Shown in pieces: positions 6,992 through 60,894 of a stretch of 64,000 nt of DNA (its first letter is position 1; every line of letters begins with the position of its first letter). The stretch spans positions 1-64,000 of IMG/VR virus record IMGVR_UViG_3300046318_000529. One strand, written 5' to 3'. A program made the position numbers and the translations under genes. The notes beneath the pieces were generated by a model that made no database searches, was not told where the DNA came from, and was given only the letters and a program-made list of their open reading frames with translations. Origin of the DNA: a virus.

Positions 6992-7016
6992 CTCTGTATT
7001 ATAGTCGACATTAATT
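6992..7016 (-). promoter_or_regulatory. Leftward phage RNA polymerase promoter
   Basis: The minus strand here is identical over 25 bases to the rightward copy at 7133-7157, including the 17-nt core AATTAATGTCGACTATA. Predicted start is near 6999, reading left. The transcript would open with two small hairpins (AGAGG-atga-CCTCT, then GAGA...TCTC) and run antisense to the early genes. The length and layout resemble T3/T7-type promoters. Confidence 0.7.
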
Positions 7017-7132
7017 CGAGCCCATATAAACCAAGGCTTCCCAGCTGGTGGAAGTGTCATAGTAGGTTACTTTACCAGACCCCCTGTTGACAAGCTATAA
7101 TCAAGGTGTTAACATTCAATTAAACAGAAAAC

Positions 7133-7157
7133 AATTAATGTCGACTATAATACAGAG
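7133..7157 (+). promoter_or_regulatory. Rightward phage RNA polymerase promoter
   Basis: The core AATTAATGTCGACTATA (7133-7149) is followed by ATACAGAG. The same 17-mer occurs at 16733 and, inverted, at 7000-7016. It lies 33 bases before the helicase gene. A T7-type polymerase is encoded at 14395-16698, and this core has the length (17 nt upstream of the start) and AATTAA...CTATA style of T3/T7 promoters. TATAAT inside it might also serve sigma70. Confidence 0.75.
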
Positions 7158-7182
7158 CTTACACCAAAGAGGACAAACTTAA

Positions 7183-8310
7183 ATGTCATTGAAACTTTTC
7201 TCAGAAGATCAGCTTAAAGCCCTAGAAGCTATTTCCTCTTGGTACAAATCTAAAAGTATGGATCCTTTTAAACTTTCTGGCTTCGCGGGGTGCGGAAAGA
7301 GCACTCTAACAGCCTATTTAAGTACACACCTGGATGTACGGGTTTTGTACATGGGGCCAACAGGAAAGAGTGCGGCTGTACTTAGAAGTAAAGGGGTATT
7401 AGCAAGCACCATCCACAGTACAATTTATATTCCTGTTGTTAATACCTACAGGAGAAGGATAGACTACACCCTTAAAAATGATATGGAAGACTCTTGTGAC
7501 CTTATTGTGGTAGATGAGGCATCTATGGTTAGTGAAGACATACAAAGAGACCTAGAGTCACTAGGGCCTAAAGTTATTTACGTAGGAGACCCTTTTCAGC
7601 TCCCTCCTGTAGGAAGCTCCACCAATCATATGGAACATGCTAATTTTACACTAAGCAAATTACACAGGTTTGCTGAGACAAACGAAATATACCTACTCTC
7701 GCAGCGTGTAAAGGCAGGTAACAGTGTTCCCTATGGAAAGGTAGGGGATAACCTCAAAAAAGTAACTAAAGGCCTAGCTTTGCTTCCTAAGACCCTTGTT
7801 GAGGCTGATGTAGTGTTGTGTGGGATGAACAGCACCAGAAAAAGGATTAATGACATTGTAAGAAACAAGAAAAGATTCAAAAATATACTAGAAGATGGCG
7901 AGAGGGTCATTATTACCAAGAATAACAGAGAGACAGGTTTAGTCAATGGTGATATGGGTGTGATAACCAGCGTTGGCAGAGAAAGCAAGGTAGATTACCT
8001 AATTGAAGTCCAATATTTGGATGACCAGAGTGACAAGCCGAGGACATTGACGGTAGATACACATGCGTTTTATGGGGTAGATTTGGCTAAGGAGTCTCAT
8101 ATGTCAGATAAGAAGTTTAACATGGCTAGAGAGGCTCACAGGGTGGTTGTAGACTATGGGTACGCATTGACATGCCACAAGTCACAAGGTAGTGAGTATG
8201 ATAATGTGGTTTTGATAGAAGAGCCGATAGGTGAAACAGCCCTAGATAAGGCACGTTGGCTTTATACAGCGGTTACGAGAGCAAAGAAGACTTTACTAAT
8301 AGGAAAATAA
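7183..8310 (+). CDS. RecD/Dda-like SF1 DNA helicase
   Basis: A 375-residue superfamily 1B helicase. Motif I is GFAGCGKST near residue 35, and motif II is LIVVDEASMV near 108. VGDPFQLPPVG (motif III) is near 136, YALTCHKSQGSEYDNV (motif V) near 326 and LYTAVTRAKK (motif VI) near 360. Length and order fit phage RecD-like/Dda helicases that unwind DNA 5' to 3' during replication start and recombination. It is the first gene behind the rightward phage promoter and heads the replication and nucleotide-metabolism block. AAAGAGG precedes the ATG. Confidence 0.88.
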   Translation: MSLKLFSEDQLKALEAISSWYKSKSMDPFKLSGFAGCGKSTLTAYLSTHLDVRVLYMGPTGKSAAVLRSKGVLASTIHSTIYIPVVNTYRRRIDYTLKNDMEDSCDLIVVDEASMVSEDIQRDLESLGPKVIYVGDPFQLPPVGSSTNHMEHANFTLSKLHRFAETNEIYLLSQRVKAGNSVPYGKVGDNLKKVTKGLALLPKTLVEADVVLCGMNSTRKRINDIVRNKKRFKNILEDGERVIITKNNRETGLVNGDMGVITSVGRESKVDYLIEVQYLDDQSDKPRTLTVDTHAFYGVDLAKESHMSDKKFNMAREAHRVVVDYGYALTCHKSQGSEYDNVVLIEEPIGETALDKARWLYTAVTRAKKTLLIGK

Positions 8311-8313
8311 CTT

Positions 8314-9054
8314 ATGAATTTTTATGATGATGATGACTACATGTTTTGTCCTAAGTGGAAAAAATTACTACTGAAAATAGTCCCTAAAAAAATCATTTTA
8401 CGCTGGAATCTGTTTTCCTACAAACACGATGCCCTTGTTTTCGCTGTAGAAAATAAAATAGAGGCCATTAAAGACGCTCTGAGGCCTAAAACTTATTACA
8501 GCATGCTTAACTGGTACCAAGATAACTTAGGTGGTGCGCGTGGCAGGATTAAGACATCCTGGGACTACGCCAAATTTGCTTGGAAAGATTTTGACTATGA
8601 CTACTCCTTCTTCCTTAAGTTAATGAAGTTCAAGTTAGATAGGATGGAAAGCAATATCAGAGAGAATGACAGACATGTAGACTCACAGGTATATGCAGAC
8701 CAAATGAAACTGGTTTCAGAGTGCCTAGGACGACTGATAAACAACAACCATAATGTCATGGCTTATGAGGAGATAAACAAACACTTCCCTGGGCGCCAAA
8801 TAGACATTTTTGAAAACATGAAGCGAGAGGTGCATCTAAATTCGACAGGTAAGAAGGTTGTTCTGTACAGTACTGAACACAAAGAGATGACGGGTGACTA
8901 TTATACTATGCAGAAAGAACTTAACGCCTATTATAATGACTTTATGGTGGCTGATATGCGGGTAATGTTCCATATAATGCTTCCTATGACGTCTGGACAG
9001 AAAGAGAAGAGAGTTGGAGAGAGACACTACGGGATCTTGAGCTGGTGGGACTGA
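8314..9054 (+). CDS. Hypothetical protein, 246 aa
   Basis: A 246-residue protein starting MNFYDDDDYMFCP, rich in aromatic and charged residues, with no membrane segment. Central region DYAKFAWKDFDYDYSFFLKLMKFKLDRM and later NNNHNVMAYEEINKHFPGRQ are notable. The family occurs in other phages between helicase and PhoH genes as I recall, without known function. It starts three bases after the helicase stop and is likely co-transcribed. Confidence 0.6.
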   Translation: MNFYDDDDYMFCPKWKKLLLKIVPKKIILRWNLFSYKHDALVFAVENKIEAIKDALRPKTYYSMLNWYQDNLGGARGRIKTSWDYAKFAWKDFDYDYSFFLKLMKFKLDRMESNIRENDRHVDSQVYADQMKLVSECLGRLINNNHNVMAYEEINKHFPGRQIDIFENMKREVHLNSTGKKVVLYSTEHKEMTGDYYTMQKELNAYYNDFMVADMRVMFHIMLPMTSGQKEKRVGERHYGILSWWD

Positions 9055-9078
9055 TTTAATTTAACTAGGGTAAACAGT

Positions 9079-9294
9079 ATGACAGAAAATGAAGAGAAAA
9101 TGACTTTAATTTTTCAGAACGAAGATGGAGTCCCATACACGGAAGGACTTTGCTCTCTTGACATAGATATGGAAAGTTTCCGCTGTATAGAGTACATAGC
9201 TGAAACAGAAAACATCACTTTTAGTCAGGCATTTATTAACTTAATGAAAAAGTCAGGCTTAGTTAAAGAGGAAGGTACAAATGAAGAGAAGTAG
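9079..9294 (+). CDS. Hypothetical protein, possible ribbon-helix-helix
   Basis: A 71-residue acidic protein. The second half (MESFRCIEYIAETENITFSQAFINLMKKSG) has the strand-helix-helix length of a ribbon-helix-helix or CopG-like fold, though this is weak. It ends overlapping the PhoH start by 14 nt. Function unknown. Confidence 0.5.
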   Translation: MTENEEKMTLIFQNEDGVPYTEGLCSLDIDMESFRCIEYIAETENITFSQAFINLMKKSGLVKEEGTNEEK

Positions 9295-9994
9295 AAGCAG
9301 CAAGTACCAAGAGAAGACAGAAAAAAATGAGAGTAAAAAGGTTAACTTTAGGCTAAAGGCACTTAACAGTAAGCAGGCTGAGTATATAAAACTCTTAAAC
9401 ACTAAAGATGTTGTTATGGCAATAGGTGTGGCCGGGACAGGGAAAAGCATGGTGGCAGCTATCCATGCTGCTGAAAAACTAGCTAATCATGAAATAGAAA
9501 AGATAATAGTTACAAGACCTTACCTAGGAACCACAGGAACTATTGGGTTCCTAGGGGGCAGCTTAAACGAGAAGATGGCCCCAGTTTGTGCCCCTATTTT
9601 AACAGTCTTAGAGAACTGCTTAGGGAAGTCACAATATCAATATGCGCTTGATAATAAGCAAATTGAAATGGTACCAACAGAATTTTTACGTGGCGCTTCA
9701 TATAACGATTGTGTAGTCATAGCTGACGAAGCCCAGAATAACAACCAAGATACAATGAAAGCTATTTGTACTAGAATAGGATACAATTGCCAATTGGTAC
9801 TAACAGGAGATGTCGTGTTCCAGTGCGATTTAGGGTCAAAAAATGATAGTGGATTAGCCTGGTTGATAAGAATGCAAGAAAAATATGGATTAGATGAGAT
9901 AGGGGTAGTCCAATTTGAAGTTGAGGATATCGTGCGCAGTGGTTTTTGTAAATCTTTTGTAAGGATGATGTATCAGGAAGGAGAGTACAAGTGA
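9281..9994 (+). CDS. PhoH-like ATPase
   Basis: This 237-residue protein is a PhoH-family P-loop NTPase. Walker A is GVAGTGKSMVA near residue 48, followed by the family block IVTRPYLG..GFLGG, Walker B VVIADEAQN near 150, and LVLTGDVVFQCDL near 172. A basic N-terminus (about 30 residues) precedes the core. PhoH proteins are very common in marine and other phages and are thought to act on RNA or in phosphate-related metabolism, but their phage role is not settled. It lies between the helicase and ribonucleotide reductase genes. Confidence 0.88.
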   Translation: MKRSRSSKYQEKTEKNESKKVNFRLKALNSKQAEYIKLLNTKDVVMAIGVAGTGKSMVAAIHAAEKLANHEIEKIIVTRPYLGTTGTIGFLGGSLNEKMAPVCAPILTVLENCLGKSQYQYALDNKQIEMVPTEFLRGASYNDCVVIADEAQNNNQDTMKAICTRIGYNCQLVLTGDVVFQCDLGSKNDSGLAWLIRMQEKYGLDEIGVVQFEVEDIVRSGFCKSFVRMMYQEGEYK

Positions 9995-10125: not shown

Positions 10126-11115
10126 ATGGACTTATTTAAAGAGAATTACGGCGGGGCATACATTTATACCCCAGAACTGGCCCCTGCCCTAGCTTTTGAA
10201 AAACAACAGTTAGATTTTCTGTGGCGTGCAGATGAGATGTTGGTAGAACAGGATAGGCACACATTACTTACACAGACAACGATAGCAGAGAAGCATGCAC
10301 TTCTCACTGTTTTAAAAACTTTCACTCATTACGAGGTACGTGCAGGGAATGATTATTGGTTAGGGCGTGTTTTGAATACGTTTTCACCGATAGAAATAAA
10401 ACGTATGGCCACAATTAACGGTTTTGTAGAAAATGTATCCCATGCACCTTTTTATAATAAGATAAATGAAGTGTTATATGTTAATGATGCGTCTTTTTAT
10501 AATGACTACTTAAAAGACCCTGTTCTTTCAGAGCACATGCAAGAGGTTGATAGGGCAGCTAGTGGGGAGAACCTATTATTGAGTTTAGCAACATTCAGTC
10601 TTATCGAAGGTGCTGTTTTGTACAGTAGTTTTGCTGTGTTAAAATCATTTAGGGCAAATGGATACAATAAAATGGGGGCAATAGCTAACGGCATAAACCT
10701 GAGTGAACGTGATGAAACATTGCACAGCGCAGGAGGTGCATGGTTATACCTAACCACATTGAAATACGGAAATCTGCCAAAAAAGGATAAAATAGAGTGC
10801 GAAGAGATGTTACCACACGTTATAAAAAGATTAGTCAAGCACGAGGATCATATTATTGAATTGATTTTTGAAAAAGGTGATTTTTGTGGGTTAACGAAAC
10901 TTGATGTTCAACTGTGGGTCAGAGAGCGTGTGAATTATTGTCTTAAGCAGTTACGTATGCCGTCAATGTATGATGTAGGTAAGACAAAAATAGGAAGATG
11001 GTTTGATAGTGAGACAAAAGGGATAACTCACACCGATTTCTTTGATGGTTTACCTAAATACAGAAAAGGGTTCCCATTAGAGGGTTTTGATTTTAGTGGA
11101 TTAATAGAGGTTTAA
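10126..11115 (+). CDS. Ribonucleotide reductase small (beta) subunit
   Basis: This 329-residue protein matches class I NrdB/NrdF beta chains: helical throughout, with diiron-ligand segments DEMLVEQDRHTLL, AEKHALLTVLKTFTHYEV, SLIEGAVLYSSFAVL, and INLSERDETLHSAGG. The C-terminal tail (KGFPLEGFDFSGLIEV) fits the part that binds the large subunit. It would make the radical or oxidant that alpha uses to reduce ribonucleotides. It is slightly short for the family but complete in motifs. The alpha gene follows by four bases. Confidence 0.9.
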   Translation: MDLFKENYGGAYIYTPELAPALAFEKQQLDFLWRADEMLVEQDRHTLLTQTTIAEKHALLTVLKTFTHYEVRAGNDYWLGRVLNTFSPIEIKRMATINGFVENVSHAPFYNKINEVLYVNDASFYNDYLKDPVLSEHMQEVDRAASGENLLLSLATFSLIEGAVLYSSFAVLKSFRANGYNKMGAIANGINLSERDETLHSAGGAWLYLTTLKYGNLPKKDKIECEEMLPHVIKRLVKHEDHIIELIFEKGDFCGLTKLDVQLWVRERVNYCLKQLRMPSMYDVGKTKIGRWFDSETKGITHTDFFDGLPKYRKGFPLEGFDFSGLIEV

Positions 11116-11119
11116 GGTT

Positions 11120-12808
11120 ATGGATTATGAAGGATTTTCAGAACAACGTAAGTCAGGTCAAAAAAGAGGGACAGTGCCTGATTGGGTAAGTACGGCAGGT
11201 TATCAATTACTCTGCAACAAGAACTATATTGATAAAGACGAGACACTCAAGGATAGGCTTAAAAGCATTGCCTCTGTCCTTTCTCAAAAAAAATATTCAA
11301 TACTACCTATTACTGAACAACGTGTTTTTGACATTCTTTGGAAGGGCTGGTATTCACTACCTACACCTGCCCTGACAAGTATTGGTAAAAATAATAAGGG
11401 TATGCCAGTAAGTTGTACTGGCAACTTAATCCCTGACAGTATTAATGGATTTTACAGCTCCTCTAAAGAGATAGCTGAGCTAACTAAGTCAGGCTTTGGT
11501 ACCAGCAGTGATTTATCTGCAATAAGACCTAGAGGTACAACAACAAGTAATGGCCTAAGTGCAGCAGGGGTCATGCCTGTTGTAGAACTTATGACTCAAA
11601 CTGTACAAAATGTTAGCCAAGGTAAAAATAGGTCAGGTGCATGGGCAGGATATATCACATTTGAGCATGGCGATTTCGACGAGTTCTGCCAATACATACT
11701 CCACAACCCTAAAGCTGTTAATGCAGGATTTACACGTACAGAAAGTTTCTCTAAACTAGTATCTAAAGGTGACCCAGAAGCACACAGGCGTTTGAAGATG
11801 TGGATGAAGATAAGGTTTGAAACTGGGACAGGGTATCTAGTTAAGCGTGATGTGATAAATAAAAGATGGGAGGGTTGGGGTCGTAAAGATAGGTTCAGGG
11901 CTTCAAATTTGTGTACCGAAGTGGGTTTGCCATCACGTCAAGATTTAAGCTACACTTGTGTATTGAGCAGTATAAACATAGCTAAATATGATGAGTGGTC
12001 TAAAGATGACATGTTTCTACATGACTCTTTTATTATGCTTAACGCAATAAATGAACTGTTTACTGATATGGCCACCAAAGCAGGTTGGAGGGATAACCTT
12101 GAACTTGCCCGTACATTGAAATTTGCGAAAGAGTACCGTGCTGTTGGTATGGGGGTGTTAGGTTACCATACCTACTTACAATCTAAGTCTATACCGTTTT
12201 CAGAACAAGAAAAACTCAATAAGCAACTGTTTCAAAAAATACAGTCAGCAGGTGAAATGGTAAGTCGTGGAATATATCAAAGTACAGGACTCTCAGCAGT
12301 AGATACACCTGGGAGATATAATTATGCACTCTGTGCAGTCGCCCCTACTTTAAGCACAAGCTTAATACAAGGAGGTGTGTCTCAGGGGATAGAGCCGGTA
12401 TTCAGTAATGCCTACACTCAAGCTATGGCAGGTGGCACTGTGAACAGGGTCAACCCAATATTGTTACACCTACTTAAAAGTAAAGGTAAAGGACAGCAAC
12501 CTATTCTTGATGACATTGTTGAGCATGATGGAAGTGTCCAGCATTTGGATTGGCTATCAGACCATGAAAGGAGTGTATTCAAAACAGGATTTGAAATTGA
12601 TCAAATGCAGATAATAAGACACGCATCAGCTAGGCAACCCTATATTGATCAAATGCAATCTATAAACCTGTTCAATTGTAATGATCAGAAATATATGTCT
12701 GATGTACACTCATACGCTTGGTCTAATGACAATATACACAGTTTATACTACCTACACCCAAGTGATAAGGTTAGGCCTGTTCCTAGATGTGAGTCTTGCG
12801 AAGGTTGA
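11120..12808 (+). CDS. Ribonucleotide reductase large (alpha) subunit
   Basis: The 562-residue alpha subunit contains the class I active-site set: redox Cys99 (VSCTGN), Asn263-Cys265-Glu267 (NLCTEV), partner Cys280 (CVLSSIN), a YY radical-transfer pair near the C-terminus (HSLYYLHP) and a CxxC tail (CESC). It is about 200 residues shorter than cellular NrdA and lacks the N-terminal ATP-cone, so it is probably not subject to dATP overall inhibition, as in other compact phage enzymes. With NrdB it supplies dNDPs from host ribonucleotides. Confidence 0.9.
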   Translation: MDYEGFSEQRKSGQKRGTVPDWVSTAGYQLLCNKNYIDKDETLKDRLKSIASVLSQKKYSILPITEQRVFDILWKGWYSLPTPALTSIGKNNKGMPVSCTGNLIPDSINGFYSSSKEIAELTKSGFGTSSDLSAIRPRGTTTSNGLSAAGVMPVVELMTQTVQNVSQGKNRSGAWAGYITFEHGDFDEFCQYILHNPKAVNAGFTRTESFSKLVSKGDPEAHRRLKMWMKIRFETGTGYLVKRDVINKRWEGWGRKDRFRASNLCTEVGLPSRQDLSYTCVLSSINIAKYDEWSKDDMFLHDSFIMLNAINELFTDMATKAGWRDNLELARTLKFAKEYRAVGMGVLGYHTYLQSKSIPFSEQEKLNKQLFQKIQSAGEMVSRGIYQSTGLSAVDTPGRYNYALCAVAPTLSTSLIQGGVSQGIEPVFSNAYTQAMAGGTVNRVNPILLHLLKSKGKGQQPILDDIVEHDGSVQHLDWLSDHERSVFKTGFEIDQMQIIRHASARQPYIDQMQSINLFNCNDQKYMSDVHSYAWSNDNIHSLYYLHPSDKVRPVPRCESCEG

Positions 12809-12816
12809 TGGTCAAC

Positions 12817-12844
12817 ACTAACCCTACTTTTTGTTAGGGTTAGT
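12817..12844 (+). terminator. Hairpin after nrdA
   Basis: ACTAACCCTA (12817-12826) pairs with TAGGGTTAGT (12835-12844) around an 8-nt T-rich loop. It lies directly after the nrdA stop. There is no downstream T-run, so it may attenuate or stabilise the transcript end instead of stopping it fully. Confidence 0.5.
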
Positions 12845-12872
12845 TGTCACTTAATATTCAGGAGGTGCGGGT

Positions 12873-14030
12873 TTGAAGATCTCTAAAAAGGAAAATAGGG
12901 CAAACCTTAATATCATGGCGTTTTACGGTAACGATGATGTTTTTTATTTATCTCGATCTTTTTCTGAGGGTTTTTGTAAGAAACCAAGCAATAATAGTAG
13001 AAAAGTCAGGAGAATAACTGACCTTATCCTTTTGTTAATTTCCAATGGCCTATACCACTATCCAGAACCTTTCGGTATTTCAATTTCCTCTGGTGTGACG
13101 TTAAAAGGACAACAATACTCATCTTTTGTGCTCAGGAAAGTTGTTAATTACTTAGTGAAAAGGGAGGTTATAAACTATAAGAAAGGTTATAGCTTCAAAG
13201 GTAATGTACAAAATTCACAAATAGTCCTTGTTCCTTCTTTTCTTAAGAGTTACAAAGAGGAACTAGCTACGGCTAAACAAGATAAAGGAACTAGGCGTGT
13301 ATTTATTAGGGACAAGAACAAAGAGGACATGTTTAAGGAATACAATGACAACACTTTCATGTCTCAGGTTTTTCTTAACAAATACGAGGACTTCCTGATA
13401 AGTAACAATGTTCTACTAGATGGACTGCCACTTACTGTATCACCTATCTATCGGATTTTTAATGGAGATGAAGATCACGGAGGAAGGCTATATGGGAAGT
13501 GGACTAACCTACCTAAAGAGACAAGGAAAAGGATTACAATAGGAGGAGAAGGCCTGGCAGAAATTGACTTGAAAGCTTGTACATTGTCAATAGCTTGTCA
13601 TCTTAATGGTATAGAATTAGATAGAGATCCTTACGATTTTGGTGTAAAAAGAGATGTAGCTAAAAAGGCTATGATAATAATGTTTTACTCTCAGACAGAA
13701 ATCAGGGCTAAGAGGGCTATAGCAGGGTTAGGAGCAGTTAACGGATTTAAAAAGGGAGAGCTCTTCACCAAGTGTGTTAACCACTTAGAAGAGAAGGGAC
13801 TTAAAGGGATAATGATGAAGGGTGAAGGATTGTCCTACATTAAGAAAGAGTCTGATTTTTGTATTGACGTAGTTAATACTTGTATTGAGCAAAAGGTTGT
13901 GGTACTTTCAATACACGATGCTTTCCTGTGCAGGGTTAGCGATGTGGATAAACTGCAAAATAACATAGATATAACCTACTTAAAATGTTTTAAAAGGCTA
14001 CCCGAATGTCACAGAATGTTGTTAGATTGA
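12873..14030 (+). CDS. Compact single-subunit polymerase-like protein
   Basis: This 385-residue protein carries all active-site motifs of the single-subunit RNA polymerase/family A superfamily in a very small frame. It has DxxGR (D201-HGGR205), motif A (EIDLKACTLS, Asp232), motif B with exact T7-type spacing (Arg260, Lys264, Tyr272), and motif C (SIHDAF, His348-Asp349). Residues 1-180 show no recognisable T7 promoter-binding domain; about 50-110 looks winged-helix-like. It starts at TTG behind AGGAGG and lies upstream of the full T7-type polymerase. Related YRIFN...GGR proteins occur in other phages and bacteria, mostly as hypothetical. Polymerase or primase activity is inference. Confidence 0.7.
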   Translation: MKISKKENRANLNIMAFYGNDDVFYLSRSFSEGFCKKPSNNSRKVRRITDLILLLISNGLYHYPEPFGISISSGVTLKGQQYSSFVLRKVVNYLVKREVINYKKGYSFKGNVQNSQIVLVPSFLKSYKEELATAKQDKGTRRVFIRDKNKEDMFKEYNDNTFMSQVFLNKYEDFLISNNVLLDGLPLTVSPIYRIFNGDEDHGGRLYGKWTNLPKETRKRITIGGEGLAEIDLKACTLSIACHLNGIELDRDPYDFGVKRDVAKKAMIIMFYSQTEIRAKRAIAGLGAVNGFKKGELFTKCVNHLEEKGLKGIMMKGEGLSYIKKESDFCIDVVNTCIEQKVVVLSIHDAFLCRVSDVDKLQNNIDITYLKCFKRLPECHRMLLD

Positions 14031-14386
14031 AAACTAAAGACAAAAGTACTTTTAAACTGTTCATCCAATATGTCTTCAGGAACTACGGTAATAAGGTAGG
14101 TATGAGGCTTGAGGACTTGTTAATGTTCATGTGGTATGAGAAAACTTTTCCTAAAGAACTCCTAAATAGGGAAGAACTTTCGAGTATTTATTCAGAATTC
14201 AAAGAGGATTGTGATAAGCTGACAGATTCTCTTTGTAAGTTTGAGAAGTTTAAAGAGCCTTCACAGAAAGCTTTTGTCGCTACAATATTAGTGTTAACGG
14301 AACTATCACTAGGTTATGGAATATTCCCTAGTGATTATGGCTTCAGTAGCTTCTTTGATTCCCAGGAAAATGTCGATTTCACTTAG
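14006..14386 (+). CDS. Hypothetical protein, 126 aa
   Basis: A 126-residue, helix-rich, charged protein with no membrane segment, overlapping the preceding gene by 25 bases. I do not recognise it. It is sandwiched between the compact polymerase-like gene and the RNA polymerase, eight bases before the latter, so it could be an accessory factor of either; nothing in the sequence proves that. Confidence 0.6.
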   Translation: MSQNVVRLKTKDKSTFKLFIQYVFRNYGNKVGMRLEDLLMFMWYEKTFPKELLNREELSSIYSEFKEDCDKLTDSLCKFEKFKEPSQKAFVATILVLTELSLGYGIFPSDYGFSSFFDSQENVDFT

Positions 14387-14394
14387 GAAACAGT

Positions 14395-16698
14395 ATGTCG
14401 CCAATCGAAAAACAAATAATTGCTGAGAAAGAGATACTCGATTTAGGTGTATCTAAACTTAAGGAAGTAGCTCTAGAAACTCTCAACGGAGAGGAAGGGT
14501 GGTTACATTCTTATGTCAGGGAATTAGTTTGGCCACTGTCTTTAGTGATACAGGATAGGTTTGAGGCAGAAGATAAAAGAGGAGGGGCAGGAAGGAAGAC
14601 CTTATTTTACACCTTACTTAAAGAGGGGTTTGATCCTTTTGCCATATCTGTTTGTGTTCTTAACGCGACAATAAAAAGTGCGATACAAGAGAGGATACTC
14701 TTAACAATCTTATCGGGGGAGATAGGCAATAACATACAGGACTATTTTGGTAAAAAAATAACTAAATTCAATAAAATAGGACTAGGTGTAACTTTGCTTC
14801 ACTCTCTTTCAGTTTCTTCACCAGGACTTTTTGAACTTGAGAAGGATATGGCTACAGGTACGGCAATTTACATGGTACAATTTAAAAGTTGTAGTAGTTT
14901 TAAAACCATAAAAAAATGTATTTCTCTTATATTGGGGAGGTATAGCCCTATGTCTGTTCCTCCTAAAACTTGGACAACAAGTAAAGAGGGTGGGTACCTA
15001 TCGAGTGACTTATCTAAAAAAGCAACACTAGTAAGAAAAAGGAGTTCTGAAGCATATGAGAGTGTTTATAGTTATGAAGCAATGCCAGATGTCTATGATT
15101 CAGTCAACTACATACAATCAGTACCTTACAGAATAAACAGTTTTATTTATGACGCGTTCACAAAAGCAGTGAGAAAGGGATTGAAAGTCAAAAACCTCCC
15201 AGCTTGCAAGCCTCTTACTTTATACTCTTATCCTCTACCAAAAAAACTAACTAAAGATAAGATGACAGAGGAACAAAGAGGTGTTCTTAAGAAGTGGATG
15301 ACTGTTAATGGGCACATCAGGAAGGAGAAACAAAGATACCAATCAAAGATGTTCAACATAAAGATCATTAAAGAGGTTTGCGGTAAACTCCTTAACGAGG
15401 GAGACTTCTATTTCCCCCACAACCTAGATTATAGGGGGAGAATATATCCTGTTCCTGTTATTTTTAATCTTCACAGTCTAGACTATGTAAGGGCTATGTT
15501 GTTGTTTTCAGAAGAGAAAGCCCTCAAAAATGAGGAGGGTGTTAAATGGTTAGCAGTCCATGGTGCAAACTGTTTCGGGGTGGATAAAGAGTCATATGAA
15601 GACAGGGAGAGATGGGTAAAAGATAATGAGATGGCTATTCTTTTCGCGTACAGAGAACCTATGGCCTCTACTTTTTGGCACAAAGCTAAAGACCCTTTTC
15701 AGTTTCTAGCGTTTTGTAAAGAGTGGGCAGGGTATTGCAAGTTTGGTTATGGGTACAAAACAGGGCTGCCTATTGGGGTGGATGCAACTTGTTCTGGTTT
15801 GCAACATTACAGCGCTATGTTAAAAGACCCTGTAGGGGCTAGGTATGTTAACATCCTGCCGTCAAATAAACCCCAAGATATATATCAAGAAGTGGCTAAT
15901 GTACTTGTCAAAAAACTAGAAGAGCTGGTGGCCTCAGGGGCTATACAAGACTCAGAAGAGGCTAAAAAATGGCTGGCACTAGGGATTAATAGGAGTACTA
16001 CTAAGAGGGTGGTTATGACAACTGTCTACAGTTTAACCCAATACGCATCTAGACAATATATTGAAGAGTACATAATAGACACCAACAAAGATGCCTTTAT
16101 AGATACCTTTAAGGCCAGTTTATGGTTGTCGCCTTTTCTTTGGAAAGCCGTCACAGAGGTGATAAAAGGTGCAAGGGTAGCTATGGATTACCTTAAAATG
16201 TGTACAAAAGACCTATCTAAGATGCAGGAAGGGATAATATGGCAGGTTCCTAGTGGTTTTATATCCCACCAAAAATGTATGAAGAAAGAGAAAAAAGAAG
16301 TCAAGTGTGATTTTGGAGACAGGAGGATATCTCTCACTATCTATGATGACTCAGACAAGATAAACTCAAGTAAACAAGTTAATGCAGTTTGCCCTAATAT
16401 TATCCACAGCCTAGATGCCTGTCATCTAATGATGGTTGCTAATAGGTCTAAAGGGGAGGGTTTGTCAGGGTTCGGTGCTATACATGATTGTTTTTTTACG
16501 CACCCTAGTGATGTAGGTGTTTTACAGAAGGTTATAAGAGAGTCTTTTGTGGACATGTACCATGAAAGTTCTTTTTTAGAAGATTTTAAGGTCTTCTTAG
16601 AATATAAATATAACATAAAACTACCTCAAGTACCTGTAGATGATAGTTTTACCCTCAACCTAAGAGAGGTCTTACAAAGCCCTTATTTTTTCTGCTAG
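14395..16698 (+). CDS. T7-type single-subunit DNA-dependent RNA polymerase
   Basis: A 767-residue phage RNA polymerase. Visible motifs are DYRGRIYPVP near residue 345 (DxxGR), GVDATCSGLQHYSAML with the catalytic Asp near 463, RSTTKRVVMTTVYS (Arg533, Lys537, Tyr545; T7 R627/K631/Y639 spacing), and AIHDCF with Asp near 698. It is somewhat shorter than T7 polymerase (883 aa), mainly in the N-terminal half. It should transcribe from the 17-nt promoter copies at 7133, 7016 (leftward) and 16733. This enzyme class is typical of podoviruses; here it sits in a contractile-tail phage. Confidence 0.95.
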   Translation: MSPIEKQIIAEKEILDLGVSKLKEVALETLNGEEGWLHSYVRELVWPLSLVIQDRFEAEDKRGGAGRKTLFYTLLKEGFDPFAISVCVLNATIKSAIQERILLTILSGEIGNNIQDYFGKKITKFNKIGLGVTLLHSLSVSSPGLFELEKDMATGTAIYMVQFKSCSSFKTIKKCISLILGRYSPMSVPPKTWTTSKEGGYLSSDLSKKATLVRKRSSEAYESVYSYEAMPDVYDSVNYIQSVPYRINSFIYDAFTKAVRKGLKVKNLPACKPLTLYSYPLPKKLTKDKMTEEQRGVLKKWMTVNGHIRKEKQRYQSKMFNIKIIKEVCGKLLNEGDFYFPHNLDYRGRIYPVPVIFNLHSLDYVRAMLLFSEEKALKNEEGVKWLAVHGANCFGVDKESYEDRERWVKDNEMAILFAYREPMASTFWHKAKDPFQFLAFCKEWAGYCKFGYGYKTGLPIGVDATCSGLQHYSAMLKDPVGARYVNILPSNKPQDIYQEVANVLVKKLEELVASGAIQDSEEAKKWLALGINRSTTKRVVMTTVYSLTQYASRQYIEEYIIDTNKDAFIDTFKASLWLSPFLWKAVTEVIKGARVAMDYLKMCTKDLSKMQEGIIWQVPSGFISHQKCMKKEKKEVKCDFGDRRISLTIYDDSDKINSSKQVNAVCPNIIHSLDACHLMMVANRSKGEGLSGFGAIHDCFFTHPSDVGVLQKVIRESFVDMYHESSFLEDFKVFLEYKYNIKLPQVPVDDSFTLNLREVLQSPYFFC

Positions 16699-16732
16699 GT
16701 CCAGTAATAAACAACAACTTAGATGCTGTTCA

Positions 16733-16749
16733 ATTAATGTCGACTATAT
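16733..16749 (+). promoter_or_regulatory. Late phage RNA polymerase promoter
   Basis: A third exact copy of the 17-mer AATTAATGTCGACTATA, followed by TAAAGAGA where the other copies have ATACAGAG. It lies in the 157-bp gap between the RNA polymerase gene and the terminase genes, where a late promoter for the structural operon is expected. No other feature is seen in the rest of the gap. Confidence 0.75.
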
Positions 16750-16855
16750 AAAGAGACTGTGACCATATAAAACAGACATCACTTTGTGACGCATAGCGAT
16801 CACCCTGCTGCACAGTGTGTGTTAGAATTAAACGAAACACTATGAAAATGACCCT

Positions 16856-17431
16856 ATGAACAATTTTGAAGGTAGGACACTTAAGCCACTGACCTACGAC
16901 GAGATAAAAGAATTACCAGATACAGAGAAGCCTAATTATAGAGGTGAAGATTCTCTAGGTAAATATATCGTTGACGGTTATGGTATTAAAAGACGAGAGG
17001 GTGAGAGGGGTGGGCCTTTGGCAGAAAGACCACCTCTGGTGACTGAAAGATCAGAGTCACCCCAACCTAAGGTAGCTAAAATACAGAAAAAAACCCTTAA
17101 GTCATTCTTAGCTAATAAACCAAGATGGAAAGACCCAGGGGAGATACTGTTAGCTATAGCTAATGGTGATAAAGAATTTTTCAACAACTCTAGGCTAAAC
17201 AAAGATACGAAAGTAGAGGATATCCCTCTTTTCATGAGAATGGATGCTGCTAAGCAACTTCTACCTTACCTATACAGTAAGCCTGTGTCTATACTAGAGA
17301 CAGAAGAAACAGTAGAAGAGAAAGCACATAGGCCTCAGGTCATGGTTATTCTCGGCAGTAACGGTCATGAGCTTGTTAAACCTGAAAATAGAGGTTATAA
17401 TGGTTTAGAAGATAACCAAGAAGAGATTTGA
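16856..17431 (+). CDS. Putative terminase small subunit
   Basis: This 191-residue protein lies immediately upstream of the large terminase gene. The N-terminal third is charged and probably disordered. The segment EILLAIANGDKEFF...PLFMRMDAAKQLLPYLYSK (about 100-148) resembles a helical block found in proteins that precede terminase large subunits in many phages (compare RIDAAK.AAPY). Small terminases bind packaging sites and regulate the motor. The assignment rests on position and this block, with no solved motif. Confidence 0.6.
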   Translation: MNNFEGRTLKPLTYDEIKELPDTEKPNYRGEDSLGKYIVDGYGIKRREGERGGPLAERPPLVTERSESPQPKVAKIQKKTLKSFLANKPRWKDPGEILLAIANGDKEFFNNSRLNKDTKVEDIPLFMRMDAAKQLLPYLYSKPVSILETEETVEEKAHRPQVMVILGSNGHELVKPENRGYNGLEDNQEEI

Positions 17432-17434
17432 AAT

Positions 17435-19984
17435 ATGAGAGACGATGCTTATGATGATAAAGATAAGATTTTCAAGCCTCAGCCAGGCCCACAGACAGCC
17501 TTTATAGAAAGTAAAGCGGATATTGCCATTTATGGGGGCTCAGCAGGCTCGGGTAAGCTCTTGATTTTAAAGGAGAAAGTACAAACGCCCACAGGAGAGG
17601 TTGAGATACAAGATGTAAAAGTAGGAGACAAGATCTTTAACCCTGACGGCAACACTCAAGACATTCTTCAAATACACCATCATAAAAATGTTAATATTTA
17701 TAAAGTTTCATTTAATGATGGCACATTTGTAAAGGCTTGTGAAGATCATCTATGGAACACTTGGAAGGCAGGCATAAGAACCAACAAAGCCATAAAACTG
17801 ATTAAAAGTGGAACCCCTGATCCAGTTTTTAGCCTCTACCCACTGTCAGCTGAGGTAATGCGCACTAAAGATATAAAAGACAACTGGTTGTCAAAAGGGA
17901 TAAAACCTCTGATACCTTGCACAAAACCCCTAGACTACAAAATAAAGAGCAACCTACTAAAAATAGACCCTTACCTCCTTGGGATTCTTATAGGGGACGG
18001 TTGCTTCTCTGATAAGAGTATGGTTAGGAGTAAAAGGATACGTATTTGTAAGCCAGACAAAGAAATCCTAGAATATCCCTCTAAAGTAGGGTTCTCGACT
18101 GAAATTATCCCACCCTCTGGGTCTAAATGCCCTTACGTAGAGTTTAAAAGGGATAAAAAAGACGCTGAACTAAGGGAGGATCTGGTTAAGTGCGGTTTGT
18201 TTGGGACTTATTCACACAGTAAGTTTATACCAGAAGAGTTTTTTACCCGCCCATTAAAAGACAGGTTATCACTGGTTCAAGGGATATTTGACACAGACGG
18301 CACTTGTGCAGAAAAAGAATCCAACATAACATGGACTACTGTTTCTGAGAAACTGTCTGAAGGGGTTGTAAAATTAGTACAATCTTTAGGAGGGTGGGTC
18401 TCTGTATCTACAGAGGAAGCTGGGGTGAACCCTAACAGGAAACATAAAAGAGATTGCCAAAAACTTTATAAACATTATGTGAAACTCCCTGTAGAGTGCC
18501 CTCCTTTTAGGATGAAGAGAAAACTTTCCAAATACAGGAAACCTACTAGGAGGTTGTATAGAACGATAGTTTCTATCGAGTTTGATCACATAGGAGAAGG
18601 GAAGTGCCTAACTGTATCTAACCCTAACGGACTTTTCATAACCACAAATTTTATAGTGACCCACAACTCTTTTGCAATTCTTTTGGAATCTTTGAGGAAC
18701 ATTAATATTCCTAATTTTTACACAATGATTTTGAGAAGAACTTCTAATGAGGTACTAGGCCCAGGATCTTTATGGGATGAATCTCACAATATTTACCCTC
18801 ATTTTGAAGGGGAGTCTTTTGTTACTAGAAGAACTTGGAAGTTCCCTACTGGGGCTAAAACTCAGTTTGCTTTTATAGAATTAGAGAAGGATTTGGAGAG
18901 GTTCAAAGGTACACAAGCCCCTCTAATCATGTTTGATGAGTTGACAACATTTTCAGAACGTATGTTTTTCTATATGTTATCAAGGAACAGGTCAACCACA
19001 GGTATCCCTGGCTACATTCGTGCTACTACTAACCCTGAAGAAGGTTGGGTAAGAAAACTCATAGCTTGGTGGTTAGATGACACAGGTTACCCTATCCCTT
19101 ATCGTTCTGGCGTTATCCGTTGGTTTGTAAGGATAGAAGGAGAGATGTTTTGGGCAGACAAGCCGGAGGAACTTATTGAGATGTTCCCTGGCCAACGAGT
19201 CCTACCTAAGTCTTTAACTTTCATCCCGGCTAAGTTGTCAGACAATAAAAAGATGATGGATAAAGACCCAGGGTATGAATCTTCACTGATGGCCATGTCA
19301 AGGGTAGACCGTCTTAAATTGTTAGACGGCTGTTGGCTAGCACAAGCTACTTTCGGAAGCTATTTTGAGAGGTCTTGGTGTGACCTAGTAATGATGCCAG
19401 ATGAACCTTGCCGATGGGTAAGGTACTGGGATAGAGCTTCTTCTGAGCCGAGTGAAACATACCCAAACCCAGATTATACTGCTGGTGTTTTGATGGGTAT
19501 AGGTAAACAAACAGGCTCATTCTACATAAAAGATGTGGTAAGGTTTAGGGCAAAACCAATGAAAGTCCATGCTGAAATCAGAAAAACAGCTGAAAAGGAT
19601 AAAAAACTTTACGGCAATGTTCGTGTCGTAATAGAGAAAGATCCAGGACAAGCAGGGGCATCAGATGCTCACTACCTTGTCAACCACCTCAAAGGGTTTG
19701 AAGTCAGAGTAAGAAGTGCTACTAAAGATAAGCTTACACGGTTCCTGCCTTTCTCAGCAGCAGCAGAGAATGGCTTAATTAAGGTTTGCCGTGGGGAATG
19801 GAATGAAGCTTTCTTAGCTGAACTAGAAAGGTTTATAGGTGATGGCGTAGGAAAGGACGATCAAGTGGATGGAGCTAGTGGTGGTTTTAATGAGCTACTA
19901 AGTAAAGCGTACTCAGCACCTAATCTCGTAATGCCAGACTTATCTTTCAAAGGACTAGGCATCTCATCTAATGTAAGGTTTTAA
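17435..19984 (+). CDS. Terminase large subunit precursor with intein
   Basis: The 849-residue precursor splits into an N-extein (1-41), an intein (42-411) and a C-extein (412-849). Joining the exteins restores the Walker A GGSAGSGK-SFAILL. Other parts are Walker B (PLIMFDE), and an RNase H-like nuclease half with WDRASSEP, VVIEKDPG and DDQVDG acidic motifs. The mature protein is 479 residues, normal for phage motors that cut and package DNA into proheads. The precursor cannot bind ATP properly until splicing, so packaging depends on the intein leaving. Confidence 0.93.
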   Translation: MRDDAYDDKDKIFKPQPGPQTAFIESKADIAIYGGSAGSGKLLILKEKVQTPTGEVEIQDVKVGDKIFNPDGNTQDILQIHHHKNVNIYKVSFNDGTFVKACEDHLWNTWKAGIRTNKAIKLIKSGTPDPVFSLYPLSAEVMRTKDIKDNWLSKGIKPLIPCTKPLDYKIKSNLLKIDPYLLGILIGDGCFSDKSMVRSKRIRICKPDKEILEYPSKVGFSTEIIPPSGSKCPYVEFKRDKKDAELREDLVKCGLFGTYSHSKFIPEEFFTRPLKDRLSLVQGIFDTDGTCAEKESNITWTTVSEKLSEGVVKLVQSLGGWVSVSTEEAGVNPNRKHKRDCQKLYKHYVKLPVECPPFRMKRKLSKYRKPTRRLYRTIVSIEFDHIGEGKCLTVSNPNGLFITTNFIVTHNSFAILLESLRNINIPNFYTMILRRTSNEVLGPGSLWDESHNIYPHFEGESFVTRRTWKFPTGAKTQFAFIELEKDLERFKGTQAPLIMFDELTTFSERMFFYMLSRNRSTTGIPGYIRATTNPEEGWVRKLIAWWLDDTGYPIPYRSGVIRWFVRIEGEMFWADKPEELIEMFPGQRVLPKSLTFIPAKLSDNKKMMDKDPGYESSLMAMSRVDRLKLLDGCWLAQATFGSYFERSWCDLVMMPDEPCRWVRYWDRASSEPSETYPNPDYTAGVLMGIGKQTGSFYIKDVVRFRAKPMKVHAEIRKTAEKDKKLYGNVRVVIEKDPGQAGASDAHYLVNHLKGFEVRVRSATKDKLTRFLPFSAAAENGLIKVCRGEWNEAFLAELERFIGDGVGKDDQVDGASGGFNELLSKAYSAPNLVMPDLSFKGLGISSNVRF
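17558..18667 (+). mobile_element. Class 3-like intein with LAGLIDADG endonuclease in TerL P-loop
   Basis: The 370-residue insert starts with Leu instead of Cys or Ser (GSGK|LLILK) and ends VTHN before Ser+1. It carries the three class 3 marks: Trp two residues after the block B His (DHLWNT), Cys at block F position 4 (KCLTV), and Thr before the terminal His-Asn (VTHN). Two LAGLIDADG helices are visible (LLGILIGDG and LVQGIFDTDG), so the homing endonuclease domain looks intact. Insertion is inside the Walker A loop, a classic conserved homing site. Confidence 0.85.
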
Positions 19985-19993
19985 ATTAACAGT

Positions 19994-20034
19994 ACCTGCC
20001 AAGCCTATGCCTAGGTATGCTCAAACCGGCAGGT
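19994..20034 (+). terminator. Hairpin after terminase
   Basis: ACCTGCC (19994-20000) pairs with GGCAGGT (20028-20034), with a second partial stem inside (GCCTATGC / GGTATGC). It is followed by a T-rich stretch. It lies between the terminase and portal genes and may act as a partial terminator or processing site. Confidence 0.45.
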
Positions 20035-56929: not shown

Positions 56930-59140
56930 TTAATGGGTATTTAACCACGAAAGGCCTTCTTTCGCTACACCGTCCAGAGGGCACTTGAGTTTGTAATATT
57001 CTCCAGCCTCTACAATAGACTCTACAAGCGCCTCTTTTGCAAACTCCCTGTGTTTAGGGTCAGTTATTATCTGTTGCTCGTCATGCATGAAAGTTACTAA
57101 ATTGTAAGGCACCCTGGCCTTCTTAAACATCTCTTTAGCTATAATGATGCTTCTTTTGTATACAATAGCTCCTGTGCTTTGTATCTTAAGGTTCAGTGCA
57201 GCATGAGGTGCTCTGCATGTCAGCTTCCTGCCATCTATACCTACTAGATATTTATTAGCTTTGGCGAAATCTTTTAGTTTGGTAACAAGCTCACCCAGCT
57301 CTGGAATACCATTCAAGTAGTTAGATGTGATATTAGCGCCTATAACTGTATTCTGTGCTACTAAGAAGTTGACAGGTGATTCACCCCTCTTCTCCATGTA
57401 AGGCAGGATAAACGTACCATCACCTACTTTCTTCCATCCATACGATAATATCTCACTTAGTCCTACAGAGTCTCTACCATTATCAGCCATTGATCCTAAT
57501 TTATCTTTACCACCACCATACAGAAAAGCATATGTTACACCTTTGCTTGCACCTCTAGACCCTATCCATTTAACATTCACACCCCAGAACCTGGAATGGA
57601 TATCACCTGATATTACTTCAGCTGTAAACTCAGGGTCATCTAAGAAATGGGCTAATAACCTCAATTCTATCCCGCTTGCATCACAACCTATTAGGGCTGG
57701 TTTGCAAGTCTCAACAGTGATTACTTTCTTCTGTCCCTTACTATCTAATACATAGTTGCCATCTTTGTCTCTCAGTTCTGTTTTAAATGACCACATAGGA
57801 TACTCTGGACTGTTACCAGATGTAAACATCTTTCTAAAATGTGGGCCATAAAGTGTATCAACAGAAGGCAGGTTCACAATACCCCTATGCGTACCTCTTC
57901 CTGTAACAGCCCCTACAGTGTTGTTATAAGGCGTAATACGGCCATCTTCTCTGATAAGGTTAAGTAGGCCTTTACCTTCTTTCTTGCCTTTCAAAACATT
58001 CCTTCTGTGCATCAGTTGTGACCTAAGGGATATCTTCCCTAGTACAGGTGTCTTCTTTGCCACCCTTTCTAAGCTCTGCTCACAAATCTGAGGAGACCCC
58101 TTGTCAGTGAACTGTAATGGCTCCCACCCCTGTGTCAGGAGGTAGGTTTTCAGTTGACTGTATGAGTTTATGTCCACTTTCTCAAAAGTAACCTTTGTGA
58201 ACGGCCCAGACACATTAACAAAATCATCACCAAACCATTTCTTAACAGTCTCTGAATGTGCACTGTTACCTTTACACCACTTCATTGTAGGTTTTGGCAG
58301 TTTCTCGTGCCTTTTAGAGTACACTGACTTGAAGCGGGATACCCACTCCTCTACGCCAGACTTCATTACATCCCTTAAAACAAATTCATTATAGGTACCC
58401 TGCTCCATTAACTCTGTATGCCAAACTACAAGGTAAGGTAATAGTCTATTTAACTCTTCGTCTATCTTCTCTACCTCACCGTTTATTTTGTTATAAACCT
58501 TCTCCATCCAAACTCTATCAACAGGGAACCCTCTGACCTCTGAGTCAAACATGATAGATGAGATCTCATGCTCCATAACCAGAGCTGCATTCCACTTCAC
58601 ACCTTTACCAGCTTCATGTCTGTTATCTTTTTCTTTGCTTAAGTGTTCATAAAGTTTCCTAGTAACAACAACATCTTGGATGTTATATCTCAGCATCTCT
58701 AAAGAGAATTGGGAGAAATCGTGGAAGTCCCCTTTAGGCATCTGTAACCTCTCCCCCCAAGCCCTTAGCGAGTGGCCGCCTAGTCTGTCTGGTGAAAATA
58801 TAGAGCTTAATATGAAAGTATCTGTGCATTTTTCCCACGACAGGCCAGTACCTAGTAGTTTATTTACTAAAGGGATGTCAAATTTAACTATATTGTGCCC
58901 AATAATCCTCTTAGCTTCATTAAGTAGTTTTGGAAGAGATGACATTGGGTAGATGTACACACTAGAGCTTTTACACCATTGAACTACCCTCTTCTTTACT
59001 TCACCTGTAATATCTGAGATGTGATTATCGTGTATAAAGATGTGCCAAGCCAGCCCATCTAGGTCAAAACATGATGCACACCATATTTTTTTAGCTGTAT
59101 CATATAGACCATCAGATTCTAGATCAAATATCAGTTTCAT
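56930..59140 (-). CDS. Family A DNA polymerase (T7 gp5-like)
   Basis: A 736-residue polymerase with proofreading. Exonuclease motifs: FDLESDGL near residue 5, GHNIVKFDIPLV near 75, YNIQDVVVTRKLY near 155. Polymerase motif A is GCDASGIELRLLAHFLDDPE near 490, motif B RGASKGVTYAFLYGGG near 530 (Tyr at the nucleotide-selecting position), and motif C FMHDEQQII near 690. It replicates phage DNA with the primase-helicase whose gene overlaps upstream (ATGA). The 87-bp gap before the SSB gene shows no gene. Confidence 0.94.
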   Translation of the reverse strand: MKLIFDLESDGLYDTAKKIWCASCFDLDGLAWHIFIHDNHISDITGEVKKRVVQWCKSSSVYIYPMSSLPKLLNEAKRIIGHNIVKFDIPLVNKLLGTGLSWEKCTDTFILSSIFSPDRLGGHSLRAWGERLQMPKGDFHDFSQFSLEMLRYNIQDVVVTRKLYEHLSKEKDNRHEAGKGVKWNAALVMEHEISSIMFDSEVRGFPVDRVWMEKVYNKINGEVEKIDEELNRLLPYLVVWHTELMEQGTYNEFVLRDVMKSGVEEWVSRFKSVYSKRHEKLPKPTMKWCKGNSAHSETVKKWFGDDFVNVSGPFTKVTFEKVDINSYSQLKTYLLTQGWEPLQFTDKGSPQICEQSLERVAKKTPVLGKISLRSQLMHRRNVLKGKKEGKGLLNLIREDGRITPYNNTVGAVTGRGTHRGIVNLPSVDTLYGPHFRKMFTSGNSPEYPMWSFKTELRDKDGNYVLDSKGQKKVITVETCKPALIGCDASGIELRLLAHFLDDPEFTAEVISGDIHSRFWGVNVKWIGSRGASKGVTYAFLYGGGKDKLGSMADNGRDSVGLSEILSYGWKKVGDGTFILPYMEKRGESPVNFLVAQNTVIGANITSNYLNGIPELGELVTKLKDFAKANKYLVGIDGRKLTCRAPHAALNLKIQSTGAIVYKRSIIIAKEMFKKARVPYNLVTFMHDEQQIITDPKHREFAKEALVESIVEAGEYYKLKCPLDGVAKEGLSWLNTH

Positions 59141-60894
59141 TTATTGGCCCCTCCTTTAAATATAACACCACCCAGTTCCTGTTTCTCTAACATCCACCCA
59201 GTTTCTGGTGTATACACAAAATCACAAACTTTCCCTGTCTCCCCCCAAACCCTATTTTTCCGTATGTGACACTCTATTACATTAGAGCCTTCCGCTACAT
59301 TCCTAGATAAAGTGATAATATTGAAGGCCAGTTGCTCTATTGAGGATGAGCCTTTTGTGGATTCAGCTAATATCTCGCCACCTTTTGAGGCTACAGAGGA
59401 ACCATTACCCCTTTTTATGTGGCTTACAATAAAGATATGGCAACCTGTTTTTACTGCAAAAGTGGCTAATTGTGTCATTACTTGCCCAATAACTTTATGG
59501 TCTCCGCCTTTATCTTGGTTATTGTTCCCATCAATAAGCATTGATAGATGGTCTAGGATAATAAATTTACAATCCTTAGCATATACTAGGTAGTGTATTT
59601 TCTCAATTAAATCCTCTATAGACATAGAGCCAAACTGGTCAACATAAACCTCCATAGAAGTGACTTCTTTAAGGCCTTCTAGCCACTCCTCCTCTGTTAA
59701 AATAGAGGGATCTTCCGATAGGTTTTTTACTGCTTTTTCATAGTACAAAGCAACCCCTTGTTGTTTTGTGAATTGGACTGTTTGCTCTAGACAGAGGTAT
59801 GCTACCCTTCTCTTTAGTTCTGTGGCTATGAAAAAACCTAGTGTCCTGGTAAATGTACTTTTCCCACAACTTGTACCAGCTGTGATTACTGTCAACTCCC
59901 CTTCCCTTAGTCCTCCCAACTTTTCTGATAACTTTTGAAAAGGGATTGTAAGGCCTCTCTTTCTAGGGGTCATTATCTCCTCTAAAGTGGTGTCCCTCCC
60001 GTCTACTACCCAACTAGGGACAAAAGGTTTAGCCTTGTAGTAGGCATTTATAAAGTCTTGGTAACCTTGTTGGCCGCCCATAAGTGCATCATTAGCGTCT
60101 TTATAGTCTGAAGGTAGCTTCATTATCTTCAACTTATCTGTGAAACCAAGCACTTCTACAGCATCTTTTACTGCCTTCTGTCCAGGCTCGTCATTATCAA
60201 AACACACCAACACTTCGTCAAAACTGGAAAGGAATTCCAGATTATCCGCAAATACCCTTTTAACTGATCCTGCACCATCGGGGATAGACACTACATTGGC
60301 TTTGAAGTTACGGTATTTAGGATCTCCGGTCAACCTATGCTTCGCCATCATAGAGAATGCGGCAATTGCATCGAACTCTCCCTCTGTCACTATTATTTTC
60401 TTAGCATTAGGGTCACATACCTCTTGGCCAAAAAAACCTAAACCTTTAGTATCTCCTACAGACTTCATAAACTGCTTAGGGATGCCCACTACCTTATAAA
60501 CCTTTCCACCTTTATATGGGAAATAAACTACATTAACTTCCCCCGACACTTCTGACACAGTTGTCTTCACGCCATAATAAGCTAATGCCTTCTGCTTAAG
60601 CCCACGATGCTTTATTTCAAGCGTAGGAAGCTCAGCCACATCTAAGGCTGATAAGGGCTTAGCATAGCTATTCTTATCGATTTTAGGTGCTTCCTGGTCA
60701 TTTGAAAAATGGCCCACAGAATGAGGCACATCATCACTATCCAGCAACGAGATGTCATTTTTAGTGTAAAATTTACTACATCTATCGCAATACCCTGTTA
60801 AGGTTTCAAAAATCATAAGATGGTTATCTGTTTTGTCTCTACCTTTAGCTTTACAGCCAGGGCAAGCGATACTCCTAATAATCTTATTAGCCAT
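59137..60894 (-). CDS. Primase-helicase (T7 gp4-like)
   Basis: A 585-residue bifunctional protein. The N-terminal zinc finger has CPGCKAKG and YCDRC; the TOPRIM region has VTEGEFDAIAAFSMM near 165 and VCFDNDEPGQKA near 230. The helicase half starts with Walker A TAGTSCGKSTF near 340, then ILDHLSML (Walker B) near 455 and IFIVSHIKRG near 487. It unwinds DNA and primes lagging-strand synthesis. It is coupled with the polymerase gene. AGGTTATTT precedes the ATG. Confidence 0.93.
   Translation of the reverse strand: MANKIIRSIACPGCKAKGRDKTDNHLMIFETLTGYCDRCSKFYTKNDISLLDSDDVPHSVGHFSNDQEAPKIDKNSYAKPLSALDVAELPTLEIKHRGLKQKALAYYGVKTTVSEVSGEVNVVYFPYKGGKVYKVVGIPKQFMKSVGDTKGLGFFGQEVCDPNAKKIIVTEGEFDAIAAFSMMAKHRLTGDPKYRNFKANVVSIPDGAGSVKRVFADNLEFLSSFDEVLVCFDNDEPGQKAVKDAVEVLGFTDKLKIMKLPSDYKDANDALMGGQQGYQDFINAYYKAKPFVPSWVVDGRDTTLEEIMTPRKRGLTIPFQKLSEKLGGLREGELTVITAGTSCGKSTFTRTLGFFIATELKRRVAYLCLEQTVQFTKQQGVALYYEKAVKNLSEDPSILTEEEWLEGLKEVTSMEVYVDQFGSMSIEDLIEKIHYLVYAKDCKFIILDHLSMLIDGNNNQDKGGDHKVIGQVMTQLATFAVKTGCHIFIVSHIKRGNGSSVASKGGEILAESTKGSSSIEQLAFNIITLSRNVAEGSNVIECHIRKNRVWGETGKVCDFVYTPETGWMLEKQELGGVIFKGGANK

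Follow-up and report, generated by a model that had tools for sequence, protein, structure and literature searches.

The proteins that most resemble the one studied here are the divPolA2 proteins, described from barbaviruses and other phages (Yutin et al. 2024, Virol J 21:200, PMC11348598). Their palm looks active, they have no exonuclease and no known thumb, their N-terminal domain was left without a described kinship, and their copies differ in number and location among phages; Yutin et al. proposed that divPolA2 is either a repair polymerase or an RNA polymerase (PMC11348598). A second point of comparison is given by the PICMI satellites, whose core genes for excision and replication encode integrase, regulator and primase (PMC10803314).

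The window, that is, the whole stretch of 64,000 nucleotides analysed here, belongs to a virus record of 68,189 bases. A second IMG/VR contig (IMGVR_UViG_3300046338_000047, our locus L001, positions 1-9337) is 99.99% identical to positions 10691-20027 of the window. The polymerase gene and the features that frame it are these:

12820..12841, plus strand: hairpin AACCCTA-N8-TAGGGTT, between the putative ribonucleotide reductase genes and the polymerase gene (sequence reading)
12860..12866, plus strand: Shine-Dalgarno sequence AGGAGGT, 6 nt 5' of the TTG, a strong ribosome site (sequence reading)
12873..14030, plus strand: divPolA2-type mini polymerase, 385 aa, TTG start (ORF; PHROG 4756; AF2 pLDDT 86)
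14006..14386, plus strand: 126-aa protein, its start overlapping the 3' end of the polymerase gene
14395..16698, plus strand: T7-type RNA polymerase, 767 aa (PF00940, E 1.1e-98), a neighbour outside divPolA2
56930..59140, minus strand: family A replicase of the phage itself (phrog_17, E 1.6e-97; PF00476)
59137..60894, minus strand: primase-helicase (phrog_239, E 2.7e-134)

The 385-aa ORF proposed at 12873-14030 in an earlier note on this DNA is real, with an open frame and AGGAGGT placed 6 nt before the TTG. That it could be a pseudogene or a frameshifted duplicate of the RNA polymerase was excluded by the open frame, the strong Shine-Dalgarno sequence and the invariant residues common to its relatives. 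The gene has the same orientation as its neighbours, and 5' of it lie PhoH and Dda-like helicase genes (Pfam, PHROG) and, by our reading of the ORF translations, apparently also ribonucleotide reductase genes. The earlier note had called the gene adjacent to that of the RNA polymerase, which is not the case: the 126-aa gene intervenes, and its product matched no recognisable family in Pfam and PHROG searches. Just 5' of the polymerase gene, the hairpin at 12820-12841 has a perfect 7-bp stem without a T run; no resembling motif recurred above chance in the 64-kb window, and promoter-like sites were not enriched near the polymerase gene. Further downstream, the large terminase gene (17435-19984) carries an in-frame insert of ~370 aa that interrupts its Walker A motif; the ends of the insert are intein-like (GSGK / LLILKEKVQTPTGE...VTHN / SF), and its first residue is apparently Leu, where Cys or Ser is usual.

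On sequence evidence, the window protein belongs to divPolA2 (PHROG 4756) as a divergent member. PHROG 4756, whose function is unannotated, matched it with an E of 1.7e-35. The assignment follows from a profile of 72 bacterial-type relatives, with the window protein left out, which recovered it at 118.7 bits together with both reference proteins (Barba18A gp034, 126.1 bits; AUR84708, for which Yutin et al. had built a model, 107.0 bits), while nine control RNA and DNA polymerases stayed at or below 6.6 bits. A hidden fragment of a T7-like RNA polymerase was ruled out, since the bacterial profile ignores such enzymes. Pfam, NCBIfam and PADLOC offered no convincing model for the window protein; membership of a known defence family is thus unsupported by PADLOC and NCBIfam. 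A PF00940 match fell under the Pfam gathering score (E 0.22, 10.7 bits against a cut-off of 22), the Pfam scan returned nothing for PF00476 at E <= 1, and hhalign to family A phage polymerases was not significant; against T7-type RNA polymerases, hhalign matched the motif C region with an E of 0.0017 and a probability of 15%.

Using tblastn we found relatives in 48 phages. Most of these are phages of Vibrio or Aeromonas, 115-145 kb in size; the others include some of Pseudoalteromonas and Klebsiella and the Shewanella phage KASIA. A search from one phage relative extended the family to the barbaviruses and to ORF100 of Vibrio phage ICP1 (positions 3308-4975 of locus L109), which is itself a divPolA2 member. 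Searches of viral contigs with the window protein, the KASIA protein and alignment A1 gave few matches. In the tree the window protein was the most divergent, with the longest end branch (2.7), and it grouped with phage proteins with moderate support. Like other members, it has an intact palm, no exonuclease or recognisable thumb and an extra N-terminal domain, and its phage encodes it beside another, regular replicative polymerase (56930-59140). It differs in being shorter than the other phage members. Phage divPolA2 genes lie mostly amid small uncharacterised genes, away from replication genes (phage loci; PMC11348598), whereas the window gene is near single-subunit RNA polymerase, ribonucleotide reductase and terminase genes.

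The active-site positions of the window protein, read against the alignments, are the following:

13473..13487, plus strand: D201-HGG-R205, GR motif, at the position of T7 DxxGR and Pol I TGR (sequence, alignment)
13566..13568, plus strand: motif A Asp232, invariant (alignments)
13650..13664, plus strand: motif B Arg260 and Lys264, invariant (alignments)
13686..13688, plus strand: Tyr272 at the T7 Y639 position, Asn in almost all relatives (alignments)
13914..13919, plus strand: motif C His348-Asp349 (alignments)

The residues singled out earlier, D201-R205, D232, R260, K264 and Y272 (+4/+12) and H348-D349, are all where they had been placed, and the distance from motif A to motif C is indeed 117 residues here against 275 in T7 RNA polymerase (D537 to D812). 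Homologues had been expected to conserve five of these residues. D232, R260, K264 and D349 do not vary among 86 sequences that are ~20% identical, but Y272 is not conserved, being Asn in 69 of 72 bacterial-type and 11 of 13 phage relatives. R205 is present in 71 of the 73 sequences of the alignment that joins the window protein to 72 bacterial or prophage relatives, and an alignment of 14 phage proteins shows no variation at R205, R218, D232, D252, Y254, R260, K264 and D349. Because the residues are invariant across these 14 phage proteins and 73 sequences, the active-site match is well above chance. The window protein also departs from near-invariant residues of the family, with Thr237, Tyr272 and Ile323 in place of His, Asn and Gln/Met, respectively; 58 of 72 relatives have His at position 237, presumably the equivalent of Pol I E710 and T7 G542. 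With the greatest divergence of the set and several near-invariant residues gone, the window protein may have a function unlike that of the rest of the family.

Sequence alone failed to reach solved relatives, as neither the protein by itself nor two profiles matched a polymerase among PDB sequences, so a fold prediction was needed. AF2, run without templates on an input of 73 sequences from the window and the fetched loci, returned a model with a pLDDT of 86.1 and a pTM of 0.79, in which residues 160-385 were mostly above 90. Two domains were delimited:

12990..13232, plus strand: probable winged-helix DNA-binding domain, residues 40-120 (AF2 N-terminus, Foldseek; suggestive only)
13449..14027, plus strand: palm and reduced fingers, residues 193-385 (AF2, Foldseek, VIA-align)

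In agreement with the earlier proposal of a minimal polymerase, the predicted structure has the palm and fingers of a single-subunit polymerase with the catalytic and triphosphate-binding residues intact (AF2, Foldseek, alignment); it has no exonuclease and no recognisable thumb, and the fingers are short. In the model D232 ends a strand, R260 and K264 lie on a helix and H348-D349 sits in a hairpin turn, a predicted placement that fits what motifs A, B and C demand. No Pfam exonuclease matched the 385-aa protein, and the lack of a thumb is indicated by the predicted model and by the family description (PMC11348598). The best 50 Foldseek matches in the PDB, with E from 1e-5 to 5e-4, were without exception family A DNA polymerases, and VIA-align of residues 139-385 gave tied Z scores of 13-14 to apPol, Taq, yeast Rpo41, T7 RNA polymerase (structure 1h38, Z 13.6) and POLRMT. 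The N-terminal 158 residues, modelled alone, formed a separate domain (pLDDT 74) whose best Foldseek matches were mostly winged-helix proteins (replication terminator protein, MarR and PadR; E 0.03-0.2). A MarR-type regulator also ranked first in a profile search of PDB sequences (E 0.16), and VIA-align gave a best Z of 7.7 with no clear known fold. The model thus makes a winged helix likely for this domain.

With the family A polymerases (Pol I, T7 gp5, apPol), divPolA2 shares the palm and fingers fold, the GR...Q..P motif, a D-[Y/F] motif A, an R-x3-K motif B, an HD motif C and an [L/M]-Q helix ahead of motif C. The differences are the Glu of motif A, which is His in the family and Thr in the window protein, the Tyr766 equivalent, which is mostly Asn, the missing exonuclease and known thumb, a profile-profile match that is not significant, and the spacing of the motifs. 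In the window protein motifs A and B are 28 residues apart (family median 35) and K264 and motif C 85 (family median 84); to our knowledge, no standard family A polymerase or T7-type RNA polymerase has spacings this short. The T7-type enzymes have in common with the mini polymerase the palm and fingers fold, a spacing like that of R627/K631/Y639 and the HD motif C; their motif A glycine, H-S/A-x-D motif, specificity loop and promoter-binding N-terminal domain are missing from it. Motif A reads D232-LKACT in the window protein and D-[Y/F]-x-x-[L/M]-H in the family, and in the alignment the RNA-polymerase form D-x-[S/T/C]-x-[S/N]-G was absent from both, as was the H-[S/A]-x-D motif. The D-[Y/F] pair, the [L/M]-Q helix and the GR...Q..P run have a DNA-polymerase-like look, and motif A appears closer to the DNA-polymerase than to the RNA-polymerase type; the sequence as a whole would allow either dNTPs or rNTPs as substrates.

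Outside phages, divPolA2 relatives occur on bacterial plasmids and at no fewer than 180 loci in the genomes of bacterial species. They were present in 24 of 289 sampled genomes (some matches weak or partial) from the class of Thioclava (G001, Alphaproteobacteria), in 6 of 247 from the phylum of Desulfovibrio (G002) and in none of 14 control genomes. We surveyed the context of 49 bacterial loci with long flanks; as controls, 40 windows were taken from six sampled genomes. Of the 49 loci, 38 carried a gene for a tyrosine or serine recombinase, and none of the controls did (Fisher p 2e-15); a tRNA or tmRNA gene was present in 33 loci and seven controls (p 2e-6). These statistics come from related, not fully independent loci and from controls of few genomes. 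Tyrosine integrases accounted for 36 loci and serine recombinases for 20, the integrase queries being drawn from the family's own loci with a match required from another locus; in about a fifth of the bacterial loci no recombinase was seen. At 11 loci, exact repeats of a tRNA 3' end (19-66 nt) bracket both the integrase and the polymerase gene. These bounded elements measure 4.9-12.1 kb, and nine of them are lower in G+C than their surroundings. Pfam annotation of their 73 other proteins of at least 100 aa returned integrases, resolvases, a few nucleases, and TIR and trypsin-like proteins, with no other primase, helicase, Rep or polymerase of a family known to Pfam; divPolA2 is the only polymerase- or replication-like protein that Pfam recognised in the 11 elements.

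The Rhodobacterales loci (L016-L032, L097) often have a DNA methyltransferase gene 3' of the polymerase gene (clusters of 13 and 8 loci), and at several of them a DEAD/DEAH helicase gene also follows it. Together the two genes probably encode a type III restriction system, present as cargo, and through this resemblance a link with defence is possible at some Rhodobacterales loci (the cluster of 13).

Bacterial divPolA2 sits in the same genetic slot as in PICMIs and other phage satellites, an integrase plus one replication-type protein. It differs in that this protein is a palm-type mini polymerase and not one of the primases that define PICMIs, and the likeness is one of gene content. Filling the slot of a PICMI-type primase, divPolA2 may make primers or start synthesis for the excised element, and the bacterial context suggests help in starting or doing the copying of element DNA, not a part in shared transcription. 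From its residues and fold the mini polymerase is probably active, and the role in element replication is drawn from genomic context. We lean towards a reduced family A-like polymerase joined to a probable winged-helix DNA binder, which makes primers or starts or extends DNA at chosen sites. This reading is close to the primase that the earlier note had listed among its possibilities. The enzyme would be recruited to DNA by its N-terminal domain and would there make a primer or start or extend short stretches at chosen sites, with two metal ions held by D232 and D349 and the nucleotide triphosphate bound by R260 and K264 as it comes in. In bacteria, small integrative elements could rely on it for their replication once excised. 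In the window phage such a primer-making or replication-starting enzyme would be an accessory to the replicase and primase-helicase that the phage itself encodes, perhaps where initiation takes an alternative route or synthesis is recombination-dependent; with both of those enzymes present, it is not an obvious requirement for priming. Also counting against this reading are the usual phage setting of the gene, away from replication genes, the bacterial loci in which no recombinase was seen, the weak winged-helix match and the possible defence link at some Rhodobacterales loci.

A polymerase for DNA repair, gap filling or lesion bypass, acting on primed DNA without starting synthesis, is unlikely but deserves weight. 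It would suit the family A-like fold, the DNA-polymerase-like motif A, the lack of an exonuclease and the small fingers, which befit an enzyme of low processivity, and it is among the options of the family's discoverers (PMC11348598). It leaves unexplained, however, the pairing of bacterial copies with integrases in small elements where no further replication gene was recognised.

The earlier note had also suggested that early and late work could be split between two enzymes, this one as an RNA polymerase and the T7-type enzyme encoded two genes downstream. Such a compact RNA polymerase could draw on the Z scores of 13-14 to the T7, yeast and human mitochondrial enzymes, equal to those of DNA polymerases, on the hhalign match over motif C with its low probability, on the T7-like Tyr272 and on the position of both genes, co-oriented in one cluster. 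KASIA has both genes as well; in KASIA and the window each lies a few kb before the terminase and portal genes, and RNA polymerase, portal and divPolA2 are 25-29% identical between the two, which points to a neighbourhood owed partly to common descent and not to a rule across the family. Of ten related phages whose whole genomes were searched, KASIA was the only one with a T7-type RNA polymerase, while eight showed a match to a family A polymerase at another place in their genome. The nine without it, a motif A that lacks the S-G residues of RNA polymerases and resembles DNA polymerases, the absent H-S/A-x-D motif, specificity loop and promoter-recognition domain, and the spread of the family through bacterial integrative elements whose cargo has no T7-type RNA polymerase together make the proposed division of labour improbable. 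Least probable of all is a catalytically dead palm-fold protein serving as a DNA-binding or regulatory factor or a counter-defence decoy, which would accommodate the near-invariant residues lost in the window protein and the varying number and location of phage copies (PMC11348598), and against which stand catalytic and triphosphate-binding residues kept in all 86 sequences at ~20% identity, an argument for activity.

The divPolA2 family was already known, its name turning up in two texts of one work; what appears new here is that bacterial relatives lie next to integrase genes in elements of 5-12 kb inserted at tRNA genes. Among titles and abstracts, a range that leaves the source papers on VEIMEs and tycheposons to one side, we found no paper linking such a polymerase to integrative elements. 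We tentatively propose that a widespread class of small elements, integrated at tRNA genes in Alphaproteobacteria and other bacteria, encodes divPolA2 as its own replication enzyme, a primer-making or replication-starting polymerase with a DNA-binding domain, and that large phages have versions of this enzyme. If so, satellites and integrative elements would have a replication module of a new type, built on a stripped-down family A polymerase, and a minimal palm polymerase would join the short list of enzymes that start the replication of mobile DNA. Its coupling to an integrase in elements of 5-12 kb makes the function of divPolA2 directly testable in a small genetic element.
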